DNA of 64,000 bases from Halovivax gelatinilyticus. GTDB taxonomy: Archaea; Halobacteriota; Halobacteria; Halobacteriales; Natrialbaceae. The notes beneath the pieces were generated by a model. The model searched no databases and was not told the origin of the DNA. It saw only the letters and a list, made by a program, of their open reading frames with translations. The position numbers and the translations under genes were made by a program. Each line of letters begins with the position of its first letter. The first letter of the stretch is position 1. The DNA lies in NCBI RefSeq assembly GCF_024300625.1, contig NZ_CP101322.1, forward strand, positions 323,992-387,991, read 5' to 3'. Shown piece by piece: positions 9,492-49,038 of the stretch.

Positions 9492-11645
9492 ATGGAGCCA
9501 AAGCGGGAGCTTTCGAGCGTCGACCTCGCCGCCCTCGTCGCGGAACTCGGAACGTACGAGGGTGCGAAGGTCGACAAGGCCTACCTCTACGGTGACGATC
9601 TCGTCCGGCTGAAACTCCGCGATTTCGATCGCGGCCGGGTCGAGCTGTTCGTCGAGGTGGGCGAAACCAAGCGAGTGCACACGGTCTCGCCCGACCGCGT
9701 CCCAGACGCCCCGGAGCGGCCGCCCGAGTTCGCGAAGATGCTTCGAAATCGACTCTCGGGGGCCGACCTGGCCGACGTCTCGCAGTTCGAATTCGACCGC
9801 ATCCTGGAGTTCGTCTTCGACCGCGAGGACGGGACGACGAGACTGATCGTGGAGTTATTCGGCGAGGGGAACGTCGCCGTTACTGACGAGCAGTACGAGG
9901 TGGTCGACTCGCTCGAGACGATCCGGTTGAAATCTCGCACTGTCGCGCCCGGCTCGCTGTACGAGTTCCCCGAGTCGCGGGTGAATCCGCTCGAAGTTCC
10001 GAGAGATGCGTTCGACCGGGTCATGGACGATTCGGACACCGACGTCGTGCGGACGCTCGCCACGCAACTGAACTTCGGCGGCCTCTACGCCGAGGAAGTC
10101 TGCACGCGCGCCGGGGTGGAGAAGACGACCGACATCGCGGACGCGGACGAAGCGACGTACGACCGCCTCTACGGCGCCATCGAGCGGCTTTCGATCGACG
10201 TCAGAACCGGCGCGTTCGAGCCGCGACTCTACGTCGAGCGCGACGAATCCGCCGAGTCGGCGGACGCGGACGAGCCGATCGAACGGGTCGTCGACGTTAC
10301 GCCGTTTCCGCTCGAGGAACACCGGGCGGCCGGCTTCGAACCTGAAGCGTTCGACTCGTTCACCGACGCCTTAGACGAGTACTTCTTCCGGCTCGAACGA
10401 GCCGATGAGGAACCGGTTCCCGGGAGCCAGCGACCGGATTTCGAAGAAGAGATCGCCAAACAACAACGCATCATCGACCAACAGGAGGGAGCGATCGAAC
10501 AGTTCGACCGCGAGGCGGAGGCCGAACGGGAGCGAGCGGAGGCGCTGTACGCGAACTACGGCCTCGTCGACGAGATCTTACAGACGGTCCGATCGGCCCG
10601 TGCGGACGGAACGCCGTGGGAGGAGATCGAAGCGCGGTTCGCCGAAGGTGCAGATCGAGGTATCGAGGCGGCCAAAGCGGTGGTCGACGTCGACGGCGCG
10701 AACGGGCGCGTCACCGTCGAGATCGACGGCGAACGGATTCCGCTGGTCGCCGACGAGGGCGTCGAGAAGAACGCCGATCGGCGCTACACGGAGGCAAAGC
10801 GCATCGCGGAGAAGAAGGCGGGGGCCGAGGCGGCGATCGAGGAGACCCGCGAGGCCTTAGAAGCGGTGCGTGCGCGTCGCGACGGGTGGGAAGCCGACGA
10901 TGAGGACGACGCGGTCGAGGCGGACGACGACGGACGATCCGACGCCGACTGGCTGTCGATGACCTCGATCCCGATTCGGGAGAATGAACCCTGGTACGAC
11001 CGGTTCCGGTGGGTTCACACGAGCGACGGATTCCTCGTCATCGGGGGACGAAACGCCGATCAGAACGAGGAACTGGTGAACAAGTACCTAGAACCCGGCG
11101 ACCGGGTGTTTCACACCCAGGCACACGGCGGTCCGGTCACGGTGTTGAAGGCGACCGATCCCGGAGAGAGCGCACGACCCGACATCGAATTCCCGGACAC
11201 GAGCGTCGAACAAGCCGCCCAGTTCGCCGTCTCCTACGCGTCGGTCTGGAAGGACGGACGGTACGCTGGCGACGTCTACGCCGTCGACGCCGATCAGGTG
11301 ACGAAGACGCCCGAGAGCGGAGAGTACCTGGAAAAAGGTGGCTTCGCGATTCGGGGCGACCGAACCTACCACCGCGATACGGCCGTCGGGGTCGCCGTCG
11401 GGATTCAGTGTGAACCCTGGACGCGGGTCATCGGCGGACCGCCCTCGGCTATTTCCGACCGGGCCGTGACGACCATCGCGGTCGAACCGGGGCGGTACGC
11501 GCAAGGTGACGTGGCAAAACGCGTCTATCGCGAACTCCGCGAGCGCTTTACGGACGAGTCGTTCGTTCGGAAGGTTGCCAGTCCCGACCAGATCCAGCAC
11601 TTCCTCCCGCCGGGCGGTAGTCGGATCGCAGAGCAAAATCCGTGA
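9492..11645 (+). CDS. rqcH: Ribosome rescue factor RqcH (NFACT/Rqc2 family)
   Basis: A 717-residue NFACT protein. The NFACT-N domain begins MEPKRELSSVDLAALVAEL, then a helical coiled-coil middle (about 320-480, EEIAKQQRIIDQQEGAIEQF), then the NFACT-R domain (WYDRFRWVHTSDGFLVIGGRNADQNE). RqcH binds stalled large ribosomal subunits and, in bacteria and archaea, recruits tRNA-Ala to tag the nascent chain. The ATG at 9492 was preferred over 9420 because the family starts at this point and the extra 24 residues look like untranslated leader. A T-rich box near 9463-9467 fits its promoter. Confidence 0.94.
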   Translation: MEPKRELSSVDLAALVAELGTYEGAKVDKAYLYGDDLVRLKLRDFDRGRVELFVEVGETKRVHTVSPDRVPDAPERPPEFAKMLRNRLSGADLADVSQFEFDRILEFVFDREDGTTRLIVELFGEGNVAVTDEQYEVVDSLETIRLKSRTVAPGSLYEFPESRVNPLEVPRDAFDRVMDDSDTDVVRTLATQLNFGGLYAEEVCTRAGVEKTTDIADADEATYDRLYGAIERLSIDVRTGAFEPRLYVERDESAESADADEPIERVVDVTPFPLEEHRAAGFEPEAFDSFTDALDEYFFRLERADEEPVPGSQRPDFEEEIAKQQRIIDQQEGAIEQFDREAEAERERAEALYANYGLVDEILQTVRSARADGTPWEEIEARFAEGADRGIEAAKAVVDVDGANGRVTVEIDGERIPLVADEGVEKNADRRYTEAKRIAEKKAGAEAAIEETREALEAVRARRDGWEADDEDDAVEADDDGRSDADWLSMTSIPIRENEPWYDRFRWVHTSDGFLVIGGRNADQNEELVNKYLEPGDRVFHTQAHGGPVTVLKATDPGESARPDIEFPDTSVEQAAQFAVSYASVWKDGRYAGDVYAVDADQVTKTPESGEYLEKGGFAIRGDRTYHRDTAVGVAVGIQCEPWTRVIGGPPSAISDRAVTTIAVEPGRYAQGDVAKRVYRELRERFTDESFVRKVASPDQIQHFLPPGGSRIAEQNP

Positions 11646-42570: not shown

Positions 42571-44064
42571 TCATGCGACCCACATCGGGAGAAAGAGCCC
42601 GATCGTGAGTATCAAAAGGAGATAGGCCACGAGAATCGTCGACACCGAGAGGAACGAGCCGACCGCCGATTCAACTCGACCCGGCCCGCCGTGACGATAC
42701 GACCCGATCGCAGAGCGTCTGAGCCAGACGCAGACTCCCGTGTACGCTCCTCTGAGACGGCCATACACCCGTCGGTGGACGTCAACCGTTAGCCCGTAGG
42801 TGTACACGATCAACTGAGCGACCTCCCAGAGCGGATCGTACTCGTCGGGCTCGTCGAGTCTTCGACGCGTGGAGTCTCGAGTGGGTGTCTCACCGGACGC
42901 GTCGGCGCGATCGATATCGGCTCCAGTCGACCGCGTGGTACGATCCTCAGCGGATTCCGAGGTCGCCCCTCCGCCTTCGGGCTCGAGCGTCGAATCGGAA
43001 CGGTTCGACCGATCCTGGTCTACCGCTTCGAGCGACGGTTGGCGAGGTTCGATGTCGACGTCGTCCAGATCCCAGTTACTCGGTTGACGTTGTGGGGGCG
43101 ATTCAGATTCCCCAGCAGCCGGTGGTTCGCCCGAATCAACCGGTTCCGCCTCGCCATCGATCGGCTCTCCCTCGCGTTCTGCGTCACCGTCGTCCGCGGC
43201 GTCGGCGTCAGAATCATCCTCTTCGACGGGCTGGGTGACGTGATCCTCGCGAGACGATGGCGGCCCGTAGGCGTCGCGTAACGTGGGCGTCGAGCCGCGA
43301 TCGATCGTCTTCTTCCGTCGAAACTGGATGCGAGAGATCTTTTCGTCCCAGTCGGTCATCACGAGCGCTTCACCGTCGTCGAGCGACTGGACGCTCTCGG
43401 CAGCGTCACCACCGAGAATTCGACCCGCGACTTTCGTGTCGTTCTCCCAGGTCAACCGGTGCCAGACCAGCCAGTCACACTGGGTGATGTAATCCTTCGC
43501 GACGGCGGCCGGACGCTGGGACATCGCGACGATACCGAGACCACGCTTTCGGCCACGCTTTGCGACCCGAACCAGCATTTTGTGGACGTCGTCGCCGCCG
43601 CCTCGCTCGGGGATGAACTCGTGTGCCTCCTCGACGAACAGTAAGAACGGCTTCTGGTACTGTTTCTCCGCGACGAAGAGTTCCCTCACGACCGCGTGAA
43701 TCACGTCCTGGGCCACCTCCTCGTCCATGTATCCGGAGACGTCGAGAATCACCGGGACGTTCTCTTCGAGCGCGAGGTCCGCGATGAGCGGCGCGTCTTC
43801 GGGCGTTATCTCGCGGTCGCACGCCTCGTCACCGCCGACCTGTAAGAGTTCGTACCGCTCTTTCAGTGCGCTGTACTCGCCATCGGTGTCGATGATCAAC
43901 AATCCGAGTCCCCGATCGAGTAACTCCTCGGCGACGACGCTCGCCGTATTAGACTTCCCGCTGCCGGACTTGCCAGTCACGAACCCGCGACCGGTCAACA
44001 CCTCGTTGATCGGCAACGAGTAGCCCTTCTCGGAGACGGCAAAGCGCTCGATCGATTCGGCCAT
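42571..44064 (-). CDS. HerA-like ATPase with acidic linker and C-terminal membrane anchor
   Basis: A 497-residue protein. The N-terminal 270 residues form a HerA/FtsK-type ATPase: GKSGSGKS at 31-38, FLLFVEEAHEF as Walker B, RVAKRGRKRGLGIVAMSQRPA as the sensor region. A very acidic, Ser/Thr/Pro-rich linker follows (about 280-410). The last 34 residues (464-497) form one or two hydrophobic helices ending in MWVA. HerA pumps DNA with NurA, but no nurA gene is beside it. Tail-anchoring of a DNA pump is unusual; a role in surface or envelope processes is possible. Confidence 0.85.
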   Translation of the reverse strand: MAESIERFAVSEKGYSLPINEVLTGRGFVTGKSGSGKSNTASVVAEELLDRGLGLLIIDTDGEYSALKERYELLQVGGDEACDREITPEDAPLIADLALEENVPVILDVSGYMDEEVAQDVIHAVVRELFVAEKQYQKPFLLFVEEAHEFIPERGGGDDVHKMLVRVAKRGRKRGLGIVAMSQRPAAVAKDYITQCDWLVWHRLTWENDTKVAGRILGGDAAESVQSLDDGEALVMTDWDEKISRIQFRRKKTIDRGSTPTLRDAYGPPSSREDHVTQPVEEDDSDADAADDGDAEREGEPIDGEAEPVDSGEPPAAGESESPPQRQPSNWDLDDVDIEPRQPSLEAVDQDRSNRSDSTLEPEGGGATSESAEDRTTRSTGADIDRADASGETPTRDSTRRRLDEPDEYDPLWEVAQLIVYTYGLTVDVHRRVYGRLRGAYTGVCVWLRRSAIGSYRHGGPGRVESAVGSFLSVSTILVAYLLLILTIGLFLPMWVA

Positions 44065-44184: not shown

Positions 44185-44658
44185 ATGAACACGGATCGGA
44201 TCGTCGAACTCGTCCTGAGCCGGATCTTTCTCACCGTCGCCGGCTCGACCGTCCTCCTCACCTCCGCCTTCGTCGGACTTGCCGTCATCTGGGAGGGCCG
44301 AATCGTCTCCGGCGTGACGACGCGGCTTCCCTTCTACGTCCTCGTCTTCTCGCTCGCGTTCATCGTCGCCCTGCTCAAACTCGACAACCGCGACCGCGAC
44401 GGCACGCAAATCCTGATCGCTACGACCGGCATCGGCCTGGGCGCCGGCTCCCTCTTCGGCCTCGCCACGGAAGGGATAGCCTACACGCTCTACGAACCCG
44501 AAGCGGTCTTCCAGACCGGCCTGGCCGTCGTCTTCCTCGCCGCCGGCATCATCTGCACCGGACTCGGCATCTGGGGCGTCCGACACTGGCGCGAATTCGT
44601 CGGCACCAACCCACGTTACCCGACGAACGAGGAGACCGACCTCGAACCGATGGAGTGA
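44185..44658 (+). CDS. Small integral membrane protein
   Basis: A 157-residue protein with four hydrophobic segments (about 14-36, 47-63, 75-95, 108-127) and a polar C-terminal tail. It begins MNTDRIVELVLSRIFLTVAG. No transport or catalytic motif is visible and I do not recognise a named family. It ends 32 bases before the hairpin array and is convergent with the malic enzyme gene. Confidence 0.75.
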   Translation: MNTDRIVELVLSRIFLTVAGSTVLLTSAFVGLAVIWEGRIVSGVTTRLPFYVLVFSLAFIVALLKLDNRDRDGTQILIATTGIGLGAGSLFGLATEGIAYTLYEPEAVFQTGLAVVFLAAGIICTGLGIWGVRHWREFVGTNPRYPTNEETDLEPME

Positions 44659-44716
44659 TTCTCGGGTAACACGCAATCGGCAAATCACCCATTCACAGTT
44701 TCACCGTTCACGTATT

Positions 44717-44939
44717 CGAGGGCCCTACGTTCGGCCTCGCTCTCGCGGTTCGCTACGCTCACCGCTCGTCCTATCGAGAATTTCGCTCGCTGTGCTCGCT
44801 CAATTCTCGTTACTCGCGGGTCGTTCCTCCCCGCTCGCTTTTTCGAGGCCTCACTGCGTTCGGCCTCGCTACTCACGGGTCACTTCGTTCCCCGTTCGAC
44901 ATTCCGAGGATTTCGCTCGCTGCGCTCGCTCAATCCTCG
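44717..44939. repeat. Array of seven covarying hairpins between convergent genes
   Basis: Seven consecutive inverted repeats: 44717-44739 (CGAGG/GGCCTCG, one bulge), 44745-44765 (GCGGT/ACCGC), 44775-44809 (CGAGAATT/AATTCTCG), 44816-44834 (GCGGG/CCCGC), 44844-44868 (CGAGGCC/GGCCTCG), 44875-44895 (ACGGG/CCCGT) and 44905-44939 (CGAGGATT/AATCCTCG). On the minus strand the loops share a core close to GARCGNAGYGA, while the stems differ but stay complementary. The genes on both sides end here, so bidirectional transcription termination is likely. The last hairpin touches the malic enzyme stop. Confidence 0.85.
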
Positions 44940-47192
44940 CTACTCTTGCGCATCCACAACCGCAACCCCCGCGAGGTTCACGATGTCTTTCACCTCATCG
45001 CCGCGCTGGAGGACGTGAACCGGTTCGTCCATCCCGACGAGCATCGGACCGATCGCGTCCGCACCGCCGAGACGTTGTAACAGTTTGTAGCCGATATTAC
45101 CCGCTTCGAGGTTCGGGAAGACGAGCACGTTCGCCGGTTCCGTGAGATCCGAAAACTCGTACGTTTCCTGAAGGATGTCCTCGACGACGGCCGTATCCGC
45201 CTGCATCTCCCCGTCGACGGGAAAGTCGACGTCCGGGTCCTCCCGGAGCATCTTCGCCGCACGCCGGGGTTTTCGCGTCCCCTCGTTGTCGACGCTTCCG
45301 AAGTTCGAATAGGAGAGCAAGGCCGCACGCGGTTCGACGTTGAATCGTCGAGCGAGTCCCGCCGTTTGCTTTGTCACCTCGGCGAGTACGTCCTCGTCCG
45401 GCTCCATGTTGACCGTCGCGTCCGCGACGAAGATCACGCGGTTTTTGAAGGCGAGGAGGTAGACCCCGGCGACGTAGTCGACGTCATCGGCCGTTCCGAT
45501 CACCTGTAGCGGCGGCCGTAACGCGGACGGGTAGTGGTGTGTGAGACCGGTCAGAAGCGCGTCGGCGTCGCCCTCCTCGACCATTACGCTCCCGAAGTAG
45601 TTCGTATCGCGAGCGATTCGATCGTGGGCCTCCGAACGGGTGAGCCCTTTGCGCTTTCGCAGCTGGTAGAGGCGCTCTGCGTACTCCTCGTAGTCATCGG
45701 CCGCGGGATCGGCGATCGTCGGGTCGAACTCGAGGCCCAGGTCGCCAGCAGTGGCCCGAATGGTGTCTGCGTCCCCGATGAGAATCGGCTCGGCGACACC
45801 CTGCTCGGCCAGCTGGTAGGCCGCCCTGATCATCTTCTCGTCGTCGCCCTCCGCGAGCGCGACGCGCTTGGGATCGCTCTTTGCCTTGTTGAGGACGACG
45901 CGCATCATCTCGCGCGACTTGCCCAGTCTGGCCTCGAGTTCGGCCTCGTACTCGTCGAGATCGAGCGAGACGCGAGACGCGCCGGAGTCGATCGCGGCTT
46001 CGGCGACCGCCGGAGCGACGGTAAACAACACCCGCGGGTCGACCGGCTTCGGAATGATGTAATCGGGTCCGAACTGAATCGGATCGTCGCCGTAGGCCTT
46101 CACCACGGCGTCGGGAACGTCCTCGCGCGCCAGTTCAGCGAGCGCGCGAGCGGCGGCCACCTTCATCTCTTCGTTGATGTCCGTCGCGCGAACGTCGAGC
46201 GCCCCACGGAAGATGAACGGAAAGCCGAGCACGTTGTTGACCTGGTTCGGGTAGTCAGACCGACCGGTCGCCATGATAACCGAGTCGTCGCGCGCCGCTT
46301 TCGCATCCTCGTAGGTGATCTCGGGGTCCGGATTCGCCATCGCGAAGATGATCGGATTCGACCCCATCGATCGAACCATCTCCTGGCTCACGATCCCGCC
46401 GATCGAGAGTCCGACAAAGACGTCTGCTCCCTCCATCGCGTCGGCGAGATCGCCCTCGGGGACGTCGCGAGCGAACTCCCGCTTGTACTCGTTGAGTTCG
46501 TCGTTCTCCGCCCGTTCCTGCGTGATGATTCCGGACGAATCGCACATGGTGATGTTCTCGCGGGTACATCCCAGCGAGACGTAGAATCGAGCGGTCGCGA
46601 TGGCGCTCGCGCCCGCGCCAGAGAAGACGATCTCGAGGTCGGCGAGGTCTTTACCCGCGACGTCAGCCGCGTTGAGCAGCGCGGCGCCGGAGATGATCGC
46701 CGTGCCGTGCTGGTCGTCGTGAAACACCGGAACGTCCATCTCCTCACGGAGTCGCTCTTCGATGACGAAACACGCGGGAGCGGCGATGTCCTCCAGATTG
46801 ATGCCGCCGAACGTCGGCTCCATCATGGAAACGGCGTCGACGAACTCGTCGACATCGTCCGTATCCAGTTCGACGTCGAACACGTCGATATCGGCGAATC
46901 GCTTGAACAGGACGCCCTTTCCCTCCATGACGGGCTTCGACGCCTGCGCCCCGATGTCACCGAGCCCGAGGACGGCCGACCCGTTCGAGATGACGCCGAC
47001 GAGATTTCCCTTCGCCGTGTAGGTGTAGGCATCCGTTTCGTCCTCGTGGATCTCCATACACGGGGCGGCGACGCCCGGCGAGTACGCGAGCGAGAGATCT
47101 CGCTGCGTGTTCGTGGGCTTCGTCGTCGAGATCTCGAGTTTGCCAGGGGGGTCAATGCGGTGATACTCCAGCGCGTCCTCGTCGAGTCCCAT
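44940..47192 (-). CDS. maeB: NADP-dependent malic enzyme with C-terminal phosphotransacetylase domain
   Basis: A 750-residue MaeB-type fusion. Residues 1-425 are malic enzyme ([45 protein letters not shown] for NADP); residues about 430-750 are a phosphate acetyltransferase-like domain ([51 protein letters not shown]). It decarboxylates malate to pyruvate; the PTA part usually senses acetyl-CoA rather than catalysing. ATG 47192 is the family start; the extension to 47288 runs into the promoter region. Confidence 0.94.
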
Positions 47193-47344
47193 ACTGAGAC
47201 AGTCGCGTGTACGACTACAAATGTTTGGGACTGCGTACGGACGGCAGGTCGTGTCAGTTTGACTGTCAAACGGCCAGTTCTGCCGCATTGGCCGTCCATC
47301 GTCCGATTCGACTCTTTTATACGGCCCCGCCCAAAGTGGCGTGT

Positions 47345-48609: not shown

Positions 48610-48692
48610 GCGCGGGTAACCAAGTGGCCAACGGTGCAGCGCTTAGGACGCTGTCGCGTAGGCGTCCGCAGGTTCGAATCCTGTCCCGCGCA
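48610..48692 (+). tRNA. tRNA-Leu, anticodon UAG
   Basis: An 83-base tRNA without encoded CCA. The acceptor arms are GCGCGGG (48610-48616) and CCCGCGC (48685-48691) with A73 at 48692. The anticodon arm is CAGCG-CTTAGGA-CGCTG, giving TAG. A long variable arm (around GTCGCGTAGGCGTCC) marks class II tRNA-Leu. The T arm is GCAGG-TTCGAAT-CCTGT, with one G-T wobble. The last 23 bases recur at 48784-48806. Confidence 0.95.
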
Positions 48693-48806
48693 TTGCTGTG
48701 GCGAACACCTCGTGAGCCACTGCAATCTGATGAAGGATTCGAAGTAAACCGAGGTTCTGCGCGAAGCGCAGGTTCTCGGGTGTGGTTCGAATCCTGTCCC
48801 GCGCAT
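48671..48806. repeat. Duplicated tRNA-Leu 3' end (candidate attachment site pair)
   Basis: The 23 bases at 48671-48693 (T-loop, T-arm 3' half and acceptor 3' half plus one base) are repeated exactly at 48784-48806. The 5' half of the T arm is not copied, so the second copy cannot fold as a tRNA arm. Integrases commonly recombine in this part of tRNA genes. The 90-base interval between the copies holds no integrase. Confidence 0.8.
48692..48726 (+). terminator. Long hairpin immediately after tRNA-Leu
   Basis: Arms 48692-48702 and 48716-48726 pair over ten of eleven positions (ATTGC, a T-T mismatch, GTGGC; and the complements) around the 13-base loop GAACACCTCGTGA. The first arm begins at the discriminator base. 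It probably acts as a terminator or a processing signal for the tRNA. Confidence 0.65.
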
Positions 48807-49038
48807 GTTAGACACGAACGCCAGTGAGTGTCTCAGTGTTGCGAACGGCGAAAGCCGTGAGCGTCTCGAACGACAGTGAGAGACGCGTCTGCGCCACGAA
48901 GGATTGAAGTGGTCCGTTTCCACGGGCCCGGACGTCGTCGCAACAGCGTACCGGTCTGAGAACGGGTCGCGGTGAAGTCCCGAGACCCCGTCGAAACAGA
49001 GCAGAACGGCTTTACGTCGGGGTCCACTTTCCGCACAC
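48807..49038. other. Non-coding region with GAACG-loop hairpins
   Basis: Between the second tRNA fragment and aIF2-beta there is no gene. It contains AGACAC/GTGTCT (48810-48833) around loop GAACGCCAGTGA, ACGGC-GAAA-GCCGT (48845-48858), and GCGTCTC/GAGACGC (48861-48886) around loop GAACGACAGTGA. The two GAACG loops are nearly the same while the stems differ, as in the array at 44717-44939. The last 150 bases lack clear structure. Confidence 0.7.

Follow-up and report, generated by a model that had tools for sequence, protein, structure and literature searches.

Halobacteria-wide repeats of GNA-capped, GA-flanked hairpins at gene ends, with a possible role as folded DNA

The GTAG REP and BIME repeats of bacteria are described, in the available text of two studies (Di Nocera 2013, PMC3733652; RepRanger, PMC12306157), as extragenic palindromes of 20-40 nt which lie downstream of genes, are clustered and paired, and have variable stems. 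The haloarchaeal repeat reported here shares these features but consists of A-B heterodimers in direct, same-strand order rather than head to head, carries no conserved GTAG tag (hairpin B is followed by GCAG in 19 and by GTAG in 5 of 83 cases), shows no RAYT/Y1 association, has a fixed, structured 11-mer loop and is spread class-wide in Halobacteria. Because the tag, the RAYT and the head-to-head dimers are all absent, it is not classed as a GTAG REP; a term search of the REP surveys, in their available text, met no mention of a haloarchaeon. The PATEs and small mobile repeats of Haloquadratum are likewise short, palindrome-bearing haloarchaeal repeats, from which the unit is set apart by their descriptions, the former being IS605-related with terminal oligonucleotides and the latter having terminal inverted repeats (PMC3119063). 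The purpose of REP-type repeats has been debated for decades, and the haloarchaeal family makes the question testable: it is class-wide, selection on its fold is visible and the rules of this fold resemble those of one DNA strand, and its hosts include genetically tractable genera, Haloferax among them.

The d(GCGNAGC) minihairpin and the PyGAPu tandem sheared G·A motif are familiar from synthetic oligonucleotides, and the hairpin promoters of phage N4 are formed by DNA hairpins that are extruded on one strand and have GNA-type triloops. The likeness to the latter is one of general description, as they are single promoters for a viral polymerase, unlike a dispersed repeat. With PyGAPu the haloarchaeal family shares a mostly C-G closing pair before the GA, and with d(GCGNAGC), to the extent that PMC6479982 (citing Hirao 1994 and Yoshizawa 1997) describes it, the C(GNA)G triloop with A preferred at N. 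It differs from both in being a natural dispersed repeat with stacked GA modules, and offers a clear natural case of GNA/tandem-GA hairpins, as well as a testable one of selection for the folding of a single strand and not for its letters. In Haloferax volcanii, too, hairpins are described close to transcript 3′ ends, where the accessible part of PMC7237163 places them upstream of 503 termini, one of them terminating 59%; the units lack the T stretch of these terminators, and the GNA/tandem-GA loop family was not found in that part of the study. A literature search with typical 12-mers of the core returned papers that look unrelated by title, and the repeat appears unreported as far as searched, the subscription literature lying mostly outside that search.

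The window, i.e., the whole 64 kb stretch analysed, is part of a 3.70 Mb haloarchaeal genome. Eight hairpins occupy positions 44688-44939 of its minus strand in the order A-B-A-B-A-B-A-B, forming four tandem two-hairpin units (Table 1) between a convergent gene and maeB, whose closest named relative found is a Halovivax asiaticus gene (90% identity). Relative to the sense of the array, maeB is the upstream gene, and the array starts directly 3′ of it, the stop codon abutting hairpin A1. An earlier note on this DNA had counted seven adjacent hairpins; the stems and loops that it quoted are present, but the count is eight, the imperfect hairpin at 44688-44712 lying just outside its range. The 8-bp stem of A1 (CGAGGATT/AATCCTCG) encloses two nested tandem G·A modules (GA-GC-GA-GC-GCA-GC-GA-GC-GA), and the GA modules of A3 are also nested, its triloop being ACA and not GNA. 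A stretch of 180 bp holds four exact copies of the 11-mer core, where 2.4 would be expected for both strands of the entire 64 kb, and RNA folding of the array gives a z of -5.35 for the minus strand and -2.0 for the plus strand. An Rfam covariance-model search of 44600-45000 gave no match up to E = 1. The convergent neighbour has no Pfam family; a HerA-like ATPase with a DUF87 domain, a long acidic tail and a C-terminal membrane segment is encoded at 42571-44064 on the minus strand. A further, weaker A-B unit of the window follows a copied tRNA-Leu 3′ end (48610-48692).

Table 1. Hairpins of the array, flanking genes and the additional unit of the window
Feature	Position	Strand	Sequence or basis
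Hairpin A1	44905-44939	-	sequence; cmsearch unit 44871-44939, E 6.8e-10
Hairpin B1	44872-44898	-	C-GA-ACGGG-GA-AC-GAA-GT-GA-CCCGT-GA-G; part of unit 44871-44939
Hairpin A2	44844-44868	-	CGAGGCC-GA-AC-GCA-GT-GA-GGCCTCG; cmsearch unit 44812-44868, E 6e-13
Hairpin B2	44813-44837	-	C-GA-GCGGG-GA-G-GAA-C-GA-CCCGC-GA-G; inner helix shortened
Hairpin A3	44775-44809	-	CGAGAATT ... AATTCTCG; cmsearch unit 44741-44809, E 9e-9
Hairpin B3	44742-44768	-	C-GA-GCGGT-GA-GC-GTA-GC-GA-ACCGC-GA-G
Hairpin A4	44717-44739	-	CGAGGCC ... GGGCCCTCG; core degraded; cmsearch unit 44691-44739, E 7e-4
Hairpin B4	44688-44712	-	GA-ACGGT-GAA-ACTGT-GA; degraded
maeB, malic enzyme and phosphate acetyltransferase fusion	44940-47288	-	Pfam PF00390, PF03949, PF01515
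Predicted membrane protein, 157 aa, convergent neighbour	44185-44658	+	no Pfam family
Further, weaker A-B unit	48809-48862	+	cmsearch E 8.1e-5; sequence; tRNA

The sequence GARCGNAGYGA, taken in the earlier note for a common loop, is indeed a shared core but is not open: it is folded into a G·A/A·G tandem, an R-Y pair, a C-G pair and a GNA triloop, the R and Y forming a covarying base pair. Every 11-mer GAxCGNAGzGA in 2.04 Mb of haloarchaeal DNA was collected and its flanks were checked for pairing. Among copies whose stem reaches 5 bp or more, x-z is A-T 72 times, G-C 50 times and C-G 9 times, with 3 cases of other combinations, while mismatched copies in the same DNA are almost all stemless. 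Any change at the eight fixed core positions makes the stems nearly vanish, and the core read backwards has a stem of at least 4 bp in 0 of 84 copies and, in an independent set, in 0 of 63. The closing pair is C-G in 98 of 122 cases (G-C 12, T-A 11 and A-T 1). In a survey of all hairpins with a 2x2 tandem mismatch, which did not presuppose the core, GA/GA (or its complement) is the most frequent mismatch, with 226 cases versus 68 for the second most frequent; a 2-bp helix and a GNA triloop occur in 136 of the 226 hairpins. Hence x-z pairing, core constraint and survey together define a fold made of a variable stem, a tandem G·A, an R-Y pair, a C-G pair and GNA. The pairing is established by covariation, and the G·A pairs would be of the sheared type; the C(GNA)G cap, the flanking GA/GA and the Watson-Crick inner pair of the d(GNA) minihairpin are all present. 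A kink-turn was rejected, as the tandem G·A has no three-nucleotide bulge beside it and the internal loops are symmetric 2x2.

The complete unit spans about 59 nt of one strand and consists of hairpin A (stem of 7-8 bp), 6-9 nt and hairpin B, whose 5-bp stem reads RCGGS/SCCGY. In B hairpins, a second GA/GA lies exactly five pairs outward in 77 of 83 cases, mostly with C-G and G-C pairs after it; an A hairpin stands 4-12 nt before B in 60 of 83, against 30 of 300 random control places. In an alignment of 21 A-B units (A4), all from other genomes, both sides change in 13 of 18 pairs and the covariation score is 0.531 versus 0.149 ± 0.018 in shuffles. The share of paired cells is 99.5% versus 80% in shuffles, a percentage that is biased for stems and inner pairs because the member stems were picked for pairing; this bias does not touch the x-z test or the outer pairs of B. 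Stems that differ yet stay complementary, as the earlier note had described them, thus covary far beyond chance. Stem identity is 0.474 within a genome versus 0.439 between genera, i.e., stems are hardly more alike within a genome, and recent copying is therefore not the chief explanation; these values, the compensatory changes and the strict core bear out the view that selection on structure and core, and not the copying of sequence, is at work. R2, a covariance model for A-B units derived from A4 with no sequence of this window, recovers all four window units, three with E values no higher than 1e-8 and the last with 7e-4 (cmsearch). The anatomy of the unit, taken alone, is highly probable, and a chance origin was rejected on the core copy number, the core constraint, the A-B covariation and the R2 matches.

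The covariance-model scan of haloarchaeal genomes that had been proposed found R2 matches in 45 of 53 Halobacteria genomes versus 1 of 242 elsewhere in the phylum, and this lone genome (G320, two unit matches), assembled to 73% completeness, may be contaminated. With R1, the model of a single hairpin, 115 of 116 Halobacteria genomes give matches, at 1 to 67 copies each, in 45 of 45 genera; outside the class, about a fifth of the genomes in the phylum sample have one to three matches. The sole sampled Halobacteria genome without the hairpin (G014) has few candidate sites and is probably low in G+C. The fold is not confined to haloarchaea, since the core hairpin with a CGGC stem was found in at least 120 viral contig stretches; among the viral matches listed (n = 82, on contigs of 33-69% G+C), both variable pairs are complementary in 73, and the pattern GAGGNCGARCGNAGYGAGNCCTC gave no match in viral contigs. 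In some low-GC phages, the hairpin stands directly before tandem DnaA boxes, where it looks like a replication origin hairpin. Four IMG/VR phage contigs (L270, L276, L230 and L262) have GACCGGG-CGGC-GARCGNAGYGA-GCCG in this position, before the boxes TTATCCACAGGTTATCCACA, and each of the two such records searched gave one R1 match.

The hits are largely intergenic (in two locus sets, 151 of the 161 hits that could be classified and 96 of 110, genes being called by a simple codon-usage predictor). Counted for each gap and strand, convergent gaps hold 63 sites, tandem gaps 77 (50 sense, 27 antisense) and divergent gaps 22, which corresponds to 0.62, 0.27 and 0.14 sites per kb; these absolute densities are inflated because the loci were picked around hits, whereas their ratios should be unaffected. 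Generic perfect hairpins follow a weaker gradient (1.09, 0.85 and 0.58), and the anticipated enrichment between convergent genes is present. The units stand at gene 3′ ends, with the folding strand preferentially the coding strand: within 25 nt of a gene 3′ end, 35 sites are sense and 5 antisense (binomial p 7e-7), with tRNAs (17 of the 35) and protein genes both represented. At tRNA 3′ ends, sense and antisense sites number 42 and 15. The idea that hairpins abut genes only by supplying a stop codon was rejected because tRNA ends show the same adjacency.

This sense preference (35:5; tandem 50:27; tRNA 42:15) is what one would expect if the repeat were an RNA element residing in 3′ UTRs and tRNA trailers, whose fold in the transcript would stop 3′ exonucleases, pause the polymerase or stall ribosomes at the stop codon. 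Such an element is a real possibility, consistent with the enrichment in convergent gaps and the strong RNA z of the folding strand, and has precedents in the H. volcanii hairpins (PMC7237163) and in E. coli REPs, which are reported, in the available text of PMC12306157, to stall ribosomes when within 15 nt of stop codons. It accounts poorly for the 27 antisense tandem and 22 divergent sites, and in tandem gaps flanked by CDS only the preference is not significant (27 sense versus 20 antisense). There is no specific sense T-tract after the hairpin (T5 in 16 of 153 versus A5 in 14 of 153), which is not the picture of a usual archaeal terminator, there is no clear G·U excess, and the loops are neither GNRA nor UNCG. 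The terminator class suggested in the earlier note is therefore only partly supported and doubtful, considering the missing T-tract and the antisense (27 of 77 tandem) and divergent sites.

The loop variants look like those of stable DNA hairpins (GNA, GNNA, GNAB) and not like RNA GNRA loops. In the GNA triloop, the base N is A in 89, G in 39, C in 26 and T in 12 cases, in DNA of 66% G+C; DNA minihairpins with GAA are stabler than those with GTA, according to Yoshizawa 1997 as cited in the available text of PMC6479982. Tetraloop variants are GNNA or GNAB in 18 of 25, the number from which their DNA reading is drawn, with GNRA rare and the third base of GNNA being C 6, T 2, A 1 and G 1 times; both classes are stable DNA tetraloops (Nakano 2002, as cited in the available text of PMC8373063). 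G·T and A·C wobbles number 11 and 7 in the larger sample, as compared to 8:1 in a first small one, so that G·T is not clearly preferred. DNA is slightly favoured over RNA as the acting form.

The explanation preferred here, tentatively, is a Halobacteria-wide REP/BIME-like repeat acting as DNA, namely as folded coding strand at gene ends. The purine strand of each hairpin is selected to fold, its Watson-Crick segments alternating with tandem, probably sheared, G·A pairs and a C(GNA)G triloop closing each hairpin. Opening or negative supercoiling at the end of a transcribed gene would let the coding strand extrude into very stable minihairpins, which could mark or insulate that end with respect to supercoiling or to a protein that binds the structure. 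The core constraint, the prevalence of GA/GA among tandem mismatches, the fixed distance of the second GA/GA, the A hairpins before B, the A-B covariation, the class-wide spread, the DNA-like loops and the lack of a clear wobble excess argue for this mechanism, as do the 3′-end adjacency and the DnaA-box setting in phages, a DNA context. Against it stand the sense preference, an RNA z which is stronger than the DNA z (-5.35 versus -2.98) and a sample of only 25 tetraloops. A coding-strand DNA hairpin behind the polymerase would reconcile DNA-like loops with the sense preference. It is rather improbable, as a broader proposal, that these GA-module, GNA-capped DNA hairpins of the coding strand form a class-wide archaeal system marking gene and tRNA ends, read by a protein that is dedicated to such structures and controls supercoiling or R-loops at these ends.

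In 4 of 5 Halovivax species, the malic enzyme gene is followed by an array of unchanged orientation but differing modules, and core hairpins occupy the corresponding position in some Haloferax, Haloarcula and Natronorubrum species. Such module turnover at one locus, the tandem arrays, a copy number that varies from 0 to 67 hairpins per genome, the repeated tRNA 3′-end cassettes and the homogeneous copies in one genome (G077) would suit a selfish or neutral mobile repeat, spread by an enzyme acting on ssDNA hairpins, without host function and merely tolerated in convergent gaps and at gene ends. This is unlikely in view of the near-universal presence in Halobacteria and of stem likeness within a genome barely above the between-genera level; in addition, mobilisation by IS200/IS605 Y1 enzymes was rejected, as 0 of 26 Y1 loci have a hairpin in their flanks, and Y1 transposase is absent from the hairpin-rich genomes G071, G240, G006 and G044. 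In G077, a homogeneous repeat of about 130 bp (L139, L140, L141 and L142, near position 10000), GGCTGGGGAG..A hairpin..B hairpin..CTCCCCGTGTCCACG, forms a branched palindrome around an A-B unit and is likely a recently amplified mobile copy.

A mutational artefact, in which a stable core provokes template switching of the polymerase and quasi-palindromes are corrected to perfect stems without functional selection, would produce nested hairpins and one invariant core inside perfect stems of many unrelated sequences. As a full account it is very improbable, leaving unexplained why the A-B order is fixed and why the second GA module keeps its 5-bp distance, as well as the conserved CGAGG/RCGGS preferences and the orientation at gene ends; template-switch correction may nevertheless contribute to the stems. 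One A hairpin (L014:2860-2960; compare 44905-44939 of the window) carries a complete A-B unit within its loop, GAGGATTGAGCGAG[unit]AGTGAGCGAAATCCTC, and is a nested insertion.

Cassettes at tRNA 3′ ends (L010:2700-3350; L029:1642-2442, minus strand; L159, L168 and L188; window 48776-48862) consist of tandem copies of the T-arm and acceptor end behind tRNA-Leu, tRNA-Tyr and others, each followed by a core hairpin. The individual copies are often preceded by an inverted T-arm copy, giving the imperfect palindrome GATTTGAAC..GGAAGTCGCAG..hairpin..CGTCTTCC..GTTCAAATC, which recalls, by analogy, recombination sites such as attC. A second loop class of 14 nt, GARC-AANNYC-GYGA, also flanked by GA/GA, recurs in haloarchaeal hairpins, for example in the tRNA cassettes and in the L029 intergenic region 1642-2442.
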